Assembly: GCA_016215705.1 (NCBI GenBank)
Contig: JACRIR010000232.1
Coordinates: 1-8,271, forward strand
Origin: Candidatus Poribacteria bacterium
GTDB lineage: Bacteria > Abyssobacteria > SURF-5
Direction of reading: 5' to 3'
Length of the DNA stretch: 8,271 nucleotides
Each line of letters opens with the position of its first letter. The first letter of the stretch is position 1. Made by a program: the position numbers and the translations under genes. The notes beneath the pieces were generated by a model that saw nothing but the letters and a program-made list of their open reading frames with translations, ran no database searches and was not told where the DNA came from. Positions 290 to 5,836 of the stretch are shown piece after piece.

Positions 290-319
290 TTGACTTTTGG
301 TGTATCACGACCTTATAAT
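290..319 (+). promoter_or_regulatory. strong sigma70-type promoter for the rny leader / candidate 6S RNA
   Basis: TTGACT (290-295) and a perfect TATAAT (314-319) are separated by 18 nt, with an AT-rich stretch (TTATTTTT, 280-287) just upstream that resembles an UP element. The predicted start is around 325-327, nearly 200 nt before the rny start codon. It is the best promoter match in the window, and its strength fits an abundant small RNA as well as an mRNA leader. Confidence 0.75.
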
Positions 320-325
320 TATGCT

Positions 326-493
326 AGCTAACGTGTGACTGGCGACGACACTTTTGTACATTGTGGAGTCTTTTGAAGAAGGGGTAGCCAATTGGGACAA
401 CCTATTGAATCCACAAGGACTATGGAAGTCCTGAATGGCTGTCCATTTTCCGGGGCAGGAGCGAAGGGTCCGCTGATCGGGCGTCGCTCCGTT
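326..493 (+). ncRNA. ssrS: candidate 6S RNA (or structured rny leader)
   Basis: From the predicted start at about 326 the transcript can form one long rod. AACG 330-333 pairs with CGTT 490-493, and GCGACG 342-347 with CGTCGC 482-487. A large open region follows (348-374 against 452-481), whose 3' side holds a small CCG/CGG hairpin (470-472 with 478-480). A terminal stem pairs 375-390 with 436-451 with two mismatches, and an apical hairpin pairs 416-421 with 427-432. Closing stem, central bubble with a 3'-side mini-hairpin and terminal stem-loop is the 6S RNA architecture, and the length (about 170 nt) is close to the usual 180. From memory, 6S genes lie beside rny in some deltaproteobacteria. 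I did not identify conserved primary sequence, and competing hairpins exist (361-367 with 410-416; 458-464 with 484-490). A cis-acting rny leader is the alternative. Confidence 0.45.
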
Positions 494-524
494 TACATAT
501 TTCGGGGGGTGAAGGAAAACAGTG

Positions 525-2117: not shown

Positions 2118-2132
2118 TCCTTGAGAAAGGTG

Positions 2133-2165
2133 GCCCCTCCCCGCACAGGGGAGGGGCTCTTTTTT
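2133..2165 (+). terminator. intrinsic terminator between rny and ymdB
   Basis: GCCCCTCCCC (2133-2142) and GGGGAGGGGC (2148-2157) form a perfect 10-bp GC-rich stem around the 5-nt loop GCACA, followed at once by TCTTTTTT (2158-2165). It begins 15 nt after the rny stop codon. Its T-run ends only 18 nt before the proposed ymdB start, so ymdB needs readthrough or a promoter inside rny. Confidence 0.85.
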
Positions 2166-5570: not shown

Positions 5571-5586
5571 AAATGGCGCGTCAGCC

Positions 5587-5610
5587 TGTAGGTGCGAATT
5601 TATTCGCACA
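5587..5610. repeat. palindromic repeat, variant TGTAGGTGCGAAT
   Basis: GTGCGAAT (5592-5599) and ATTCGCAC (5602-5609) are perfect inverted arms around TT, preceded by TGTAG. It is a sequence variant of the neighbouring GTAGGGGCGC units that keeps its pairing. Confidence 0.75.
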
Positions 5611-5639
5611 GCAGCAGAACCGCAGCCTATGACCGGATT

Positions 5640-5664
5640 GGGCGCGATGAATCGCGCCCCTACA
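5640..5664. repeat. palindromic repeat GGGCGCGAT/ATCGCGCCC
   Basis: Perfect 9-bp arms (5640-5648 and 5651-5659) surround GA and are followed by CTACA (5660-5664). This places the unit opposite in orientation to the next one at 5683, which starts GTAGGGGCGC. Confidence 0.8.
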
Positions 5665-5682
5665 AAGTCCTAATATATGGCC

Positions 5683-5706
5683 GTAGGGGCGCAATTCATT
5701 GCGCCC
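5683..5706. repeat. palindromic repeat GTAGGGGCGCAAT
   Basis: GGGCGCAAT (5687-5695) and ATTGCGCCC (5698-5706) are perfect inverted arms around TC, preceded by GTAG. The same head-to-tail family as at 5640-5664, inverted relative to it. Confidence 0.8.
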
Positions 5707-5732
5707 TTGCAGTCGCCAAATAATTCTCACAG

Positions 5733-5821
5733 GATTGGTTCCCCACATGCAGGGGCGCATGGTGTCTTTCTACGTGCATGTTCATCGCCTAGATTGGTTC
5801 CCCACATGTAGGGGCGCACGG
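5733..5821 (+). repeat. two 30-nt direct repeats, 59 nt apart
   Basis: Units at 5733-5762 and 5792-5821 begin GATTGGTTCCCCACATG and end GGGGCGCA.GG; they agree at 28 of 30 positions. The 29 nt between them (5763-5791) are unrelated. Only the second copy continues into its inverted partner. Two copies and no further spacing regularity rule out a CRISPR array. Confidence 0.8.
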
Positions 5822-5836
5822 CCGTGCGCCCCTGCA
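5807..5836. repeat. 30-nt loopless palindrome, TGTAGGGGCGCACGG core
   Basis: Arms 5807-5821 and 5822-5836 are complementary at 14 of 15 positions, the exception being a T-G pair. It is the largest palindrome of the cluster and ends 30 nt before the stop codon of the leftward acyl-CoA synthetase gene, so it could act as a transcript-end hairpin for that gene. Confidence 0.8.

Follow-up and report, generated by a model that had tools for sequence, protein, structure and literature searches.

The closest described system is the leader of rny in B. subtilis, where RNase Y cuts its own 164-nt leader and the early part of the open reading frame, and where the ribosome-binding site can sit in secondary structure (PMC10303841). 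The sites cut by RNase Y are AU-rich and single-stranded, and they lie near structure (PMC3997798). In E. coli, the 5' UTR of rne contains a stem-loop that is bound by RNase E, and the gene is autoregulated (discussed in PMC10303841 and PMC3997798). A different RNA precedes rny in several other bacterial groups: 6S RNA (RF00013) was located upstream of the gene in 7 of 20 rny loci of other bacteria, mostly deltaproteobacterial MAGs together with a Nitrospirae MAG.

The window, by which we mean the whole stretch of 8,271 nucleotides analysed here from a Candidatus Poribacteria bacterium, contains the gene for ribonuclease Y (rny) at positions 522-2117 of the + strand, with GTG 522 or ATG 525 as the start codon. 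The product contains the Pfam domains RNase_Y_N, KH_1, and HD, and matches TIGR03319 with 739.7 bits, which is above the cut-off, while its best named relatives are only about 60% identical. The gene is followed by an intrinsic terminator at 2132-2158 (+ strand; an 11-bp stem and then a T run), downstream of which lies ymdB. Upstream of rny is a sigma70-type promoter, TTGACT-N18-TATAAT, at 290-319 (+ strand), in which 11 of 12 bases agree with the consensus. Judging from the position of the -10 box, the transcript probably starts near 326, which would give an rny mRNA made from its own strong promoter with a 5' leader of about 196 nt (326-521, + strand). The layout resembles that of the 5' UTR in B. 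subtilis, which also has its own promoter of the housekeeping-sigma type and a long leader directly before rny, and the likeness is one of layout, with no sequence similarity claimed. No protein-like gene was found in 320-520, where a minus-strand open reading frame has no Pfam match, and the terminator scan flagged no intrinsic terminator on the + strand between the promoter and rny. The near-consensus promoter and the roughly 200 nt without a plausible gene that the initial annotation had described were thus both borne out. Just 5' of the promoter, at 257-276 on the + strand, there is a terminator-like hairpin with no + strand gene seen ahead of it. Elsewhere in the window, short repeated elements of the type GTAGGGGCGCAATTCATTGCGCCC, spotted by eye, are located between two genes at 5580-5830.

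The leader was compared with that of G002, which represents another genus of the same bacterial family and encodes an RNase Y that is 83% identical. The promoter hexamers and the 18-nt spacer are the same upstream of rny in G002, and the leader is of similar length. About half of the positions between the promoter and the 3' end of the leader differ, whereas a block that runs from CGCUCC through UUUACAUAUU and GGGGGGUGAAGG is nearly identical. The first of these segments, UUUACAUAUU, is an invariant AU-rich tract at 492-501 (+ strand), and the second, GGGGGGUGAAGG, at 504-515 (+ strand), is identified as the Shine-Dalgarno region by its position relative to the rny start and is identical in G002; the exact pattern used for the 16S 3' end had no match in the source assembly. 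The last 60 nt before rny were the most conserved of 30 intergenic-like upstream regions (score 53; next 38; 95th percentile 35), in a ranking that is only rough, given the small sample and the rule-based choice of start codons. The ranking covered about 0.8 Mb of the source genome and 1.2 Mb of G002, with genes paired as reciprocal best open reading frames at a protein identity of at least 60%. CGCUCC and UUUACAUAUU belong to the conserved part, which reaches about 20 nt 5' of the Shine-Dalgarno region. The conserved block had no match in IMG/VR or in G001, a third genome of the family that is 98% complete. G001 contains RNase E/G, and it has no RNase Y over the cut-off and no YmdB match, which may mean that rny and ymdB were truly lost as a pair or that they fall in a gap in the assembly. 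With two leader sequences to compare, from the source genome and G002, covariation is thin, and the switch discussed below is put forward as a proposal.

A hairpin, here called P1, can form immediately 5' of the AU-rich tract at 458-490 (+ strand), with an outer stem GGAGCGA/UCGCUCC (458-464/484-490) and an inner stem GUCCG/CGGGC. Its predicted stability is -17.5 kcal/mol (z -2.5), which was equalled by 7 of 200 shuffles. The outer stem had been proposed in the initial annotation and is indeed present, with positions 484-487 common to it and to the closing stem suggested there for a 6S RNA. The counterpart in G002 (L003:3154-3122) has the same length and is predicted at -20.3 kcal/mol (z -3.4), so that P1 is retained despite differences at 16 of 33 bases. 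Six of the seven pairs in the outer stem are kept in G002; four pairs are invariant, one has a one-sided change, one has a two-sided change, and one is broken. The inner stem is offset by one position between the two genomes. When only the differing letters were permuted, the observed stability was reached in 1.3% of cases for the copy in G002 and in 11% for the copy in the window.

The 3' arm of P1 can also pair downstream. In the alternative hairpin at 484-512 (+ strand), the invariant AU-rich tract UUUACAUAUU lies in the loop, and UCGCUCC (484-490) is base-paired to GGGGUGA (506-512), by which the G-rich ribosome-binding site is masked. It is predicted at -8.2 kcal/mol (z -1.7) in the window and at -9.6 kcal/mol (z -2.8) in G002, and is thus weaker than P1, yet in both genomes it surpasses most shuffles. 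All six pairs at 485-490/506-511 are kept in G002 and all are invariant, which leaves this pairing without support from covariation. The two hairpins have the arm 484-490 in common and are mutually exclusive. The initial annotation had suggested that the RNA switches between two folds, and this stands insofar as one arm has two possible partners; the 6S closing stem, which it had named as the other fold, does not, as the alternatives kept in G002 are P1 itself and the pairing of its 3' arm to the ribosome-binding site. When 450-530 was folded as a whole, P1 was not part of the minimum fold in the window and the stability was no better than that of shuffles, whereas P1 is the minimum fold of the corresponding segment in G002, and for this reason P1 is referred to below as the putative default state.

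Across 88 rny loci, pairing of the ribosome-binding site was not enriched relative to 110 control starts (p = 0.71), and any such element is therefore a feature of the lineage and not a universal property of rny. Hairpins of the CTCCAG...CTGGAG type, with an AU-rich loop and covering the Shine-Dalgarno sequence, were observed upstream of rny in four proteobacterial, mostly deltaproteobacterial, loci (L066, L067, L089, and L111). Upstream of rny in two Syntrophorhabdaceae loci (L086 and L096), there are hairpins of the CCCC-UUUUACAUACAA-GGGGG type at the ribosome-binding site, which resemble the alternative hairpin in the window.

The initial annotation had read 290-520 as a candidate 6S RNA, to be checked with the Rfam covariance models and by the conservation of a closing stem (342-347/482-487) and an apical stem (375-390/436-451) on either side of a large bubble. 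The guess was understandable, given the 7 of 20 rny loci of other bacteria with a 6S RNA ahead of the gene, and a diverged second copy of 6S might also be considered at this site. However, the Rfam search of the window gave no match at the gathering thresholds, and at E<=10 the segment 200-600 gave only two chance-level matches to eukaryotic families and no 6S RNA. As 6S upstream of rny is real elsewhere, we also built a covariance model from ten 6S RNAs, three from this bacterial family and seven from upstream of rny. With filters off and E<=10, this model found nothing at 290-520, while it gave 132-155 bits to four true 6S RNAs (the three family members L001, L117, and L118, and L064), all four of which belong to its training set. 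The stems were not kept in G002 either, where 3 of 6 pairs of the closing stem and 9 of 16 pairs of the apical stem remain, counted on the one pairwise alignment that also underlies the pair counts given above for the two hairpins. The minimum free energy lies within the range of shuffles both for 325-510 (z -0.86; 34 of 200 shuffles as good) and for 325-521 (z -0.62), and 341-488 folded alone has a z of -1.84. The 6S-like fold was not confirmed. The genome has a single bona fide 6S RNA on another contig (RF00013, 88.4 bits), as does each of the other two family genomes, so that the gene is single-copy in all three. A 13-nt string, UUUGAAGAAGGGG(U)AGCC, is common to the leader, at 372-389, and the genome's own 6S RNA (L001), and none of 1000 shuffles scored as high; it falls mostly in a part of 6S that varies among the three genomes and is absent from the leader in G002, and is therefore treated as chance or, at most, as an unexplained similarity. 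The lack of a flagged terminator before rny also argues against a discrete 6S RNA. With no model match, no conserved fold, and a genuine 6S RNA elsewhere in the genome, we reject the 6S identification at 290-520, which is now very improbable also in the form of a second copy, and the region is very probably the leader of rny. A 6S-like layout in a plausible genomic position is hence insufficient to call a 6S RNA.

Among the other readings of the region, a leader peptide encoded in frame 392-721 has about as little to recommend it. The frame is also open in G002, but it begins with TTG, the two genomes share it in stretches of general DNA conservation and of overlap with rny, and in 395-520 the codon differences are 27 nonsynonymous against 5 synonymous, a pattern on which we reject such a peptide. 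Somewhat less improbable, although still quite unlikely, is a transcription attenuator in which P1 and the following UUU(U)AC serve as a weak, regulated terminator. The stability of P1, the U-rich sequence after it, and a terminator-like site flagged at the corresponding place in G002 are all in its favour; however, there are only three to four consecutive U, broken by A and C, the site in the window was not flagged by the terminator scan, and the tract is conserved as UUUACAUAUU and not as a U run. The most serious competitor is a plain leader that lacks dedicated regulation, has a strong and conserved ribosome-binding site, and forms the hairpins only incidentally. The ordinary folding energy of the whole leader (z -0.6 to -0.9) fits this well, as does the fact that the most conserved piece takes in the Shine-Dalgarno region and that ribosome-binding sites are paired equally often at control genes. 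It does not readily explain why conservation reaches about 20 nt 5' of the Shine-Dalgarno region, to a level above all 29 other upstream regions, or why, in each of the two genomes, few shuffles are as stable as P1. We regard the plain leader as a realistic possibility that probably does not apply. An rny leader that combines an element next to the ribosome-binding site with a regulatory mechanism is, taken as a whole statement, somewhat better placed, at slightly short of an even chance. The object is ordinary in kind, an rny leader with a lineage-specific conserved element at the ribosome-binding site, for which a regulatory role is no more than plausible. The initial annotation had offered, as an alternative, a long structured leader of RNase Y with a possible part in autoregulation, and this reading agrees with the evidence.

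If the rny leader is regulatory, its functional part would be the last 65 nt, where P1 is placed directly 5' of UUUACAUAUU and the G-rich ribosome-binding site. P1 would be the most likely default local fold and would leave the ribosome-binding site open. The tract UUUACAUAUU is a candidate cleavage tract for RNase Y, or for RNase E/G, with P1 as its neighbouring structure; a published leader site, CCG^UUUAUUC (PMC3997798), is close to CUCCGUUUACAU in the window, while G002 lacks the G. At high levels of RNase Y, cleavage at this tract would shorten or inactivate the enzyme's own mRNA. Once P1 had been melted or removed by cleavage, the arm UCGCUCC on its 3' side could pair with GGGGUGA instead and so shut the ribosome-binding site. 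The strict form of this scheme, a two-state switch in which the invariant arm UCGCUCC chooses between the upstream hairpin and the Shine-Dalgarno sequence according to cleavage by RNase Y in the AU-rich loop, is speculative, and we consider it unlikely.

Such a scheme would have several elements in common with the rny 5' UTR in B. subtilis, including a G-rich Shine-Dalgarno sequence, a ribosome-binding site that may be able to pair (here through hairpin 484-512, which is possible in both genomes, with such pairing equally common at control genes), and AU-rich segments suited to RNase Y. It differs in that the structure reaches codon 13 in B. subtilis, while it is located upstream of the start codon here. 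Furthermore, no RNase J (TIGR00649) over the cut-off was found in the three genomes of the family, which are incomplete drafts, while RNase E/G is present in these genomes. Trimming from the 5' end by RNase J1 thus appears to have no counterpart, so that the steps assigned to RNase J in B. subtilis cannot take the same form here, and later steps must differ. The likeness to the rne 5' UTR in E. coli is that of a structured leader in front of a gene for an endoribonuclease that initiates decay, but both the enzyme and the RNA are different, and the stem-loop in E. coli is bound by the enzyme and is not a hairpin at the ribosome-binding site.

In B. subtilis, RNase Y has already been shown to regulate itself by way of its leader. 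If the switch were real, the state of this RNA would be set by the very enzyme that its mRNA encodes, in a lineage with RNase Y and RNase E/G and apparently without RNase J. A conserved element near the ribosome-binding site of rny in such an unrelated lineage would suggest that endonucleases that initiate RNA decay have repeatedly come to use their own leaders as sensors.
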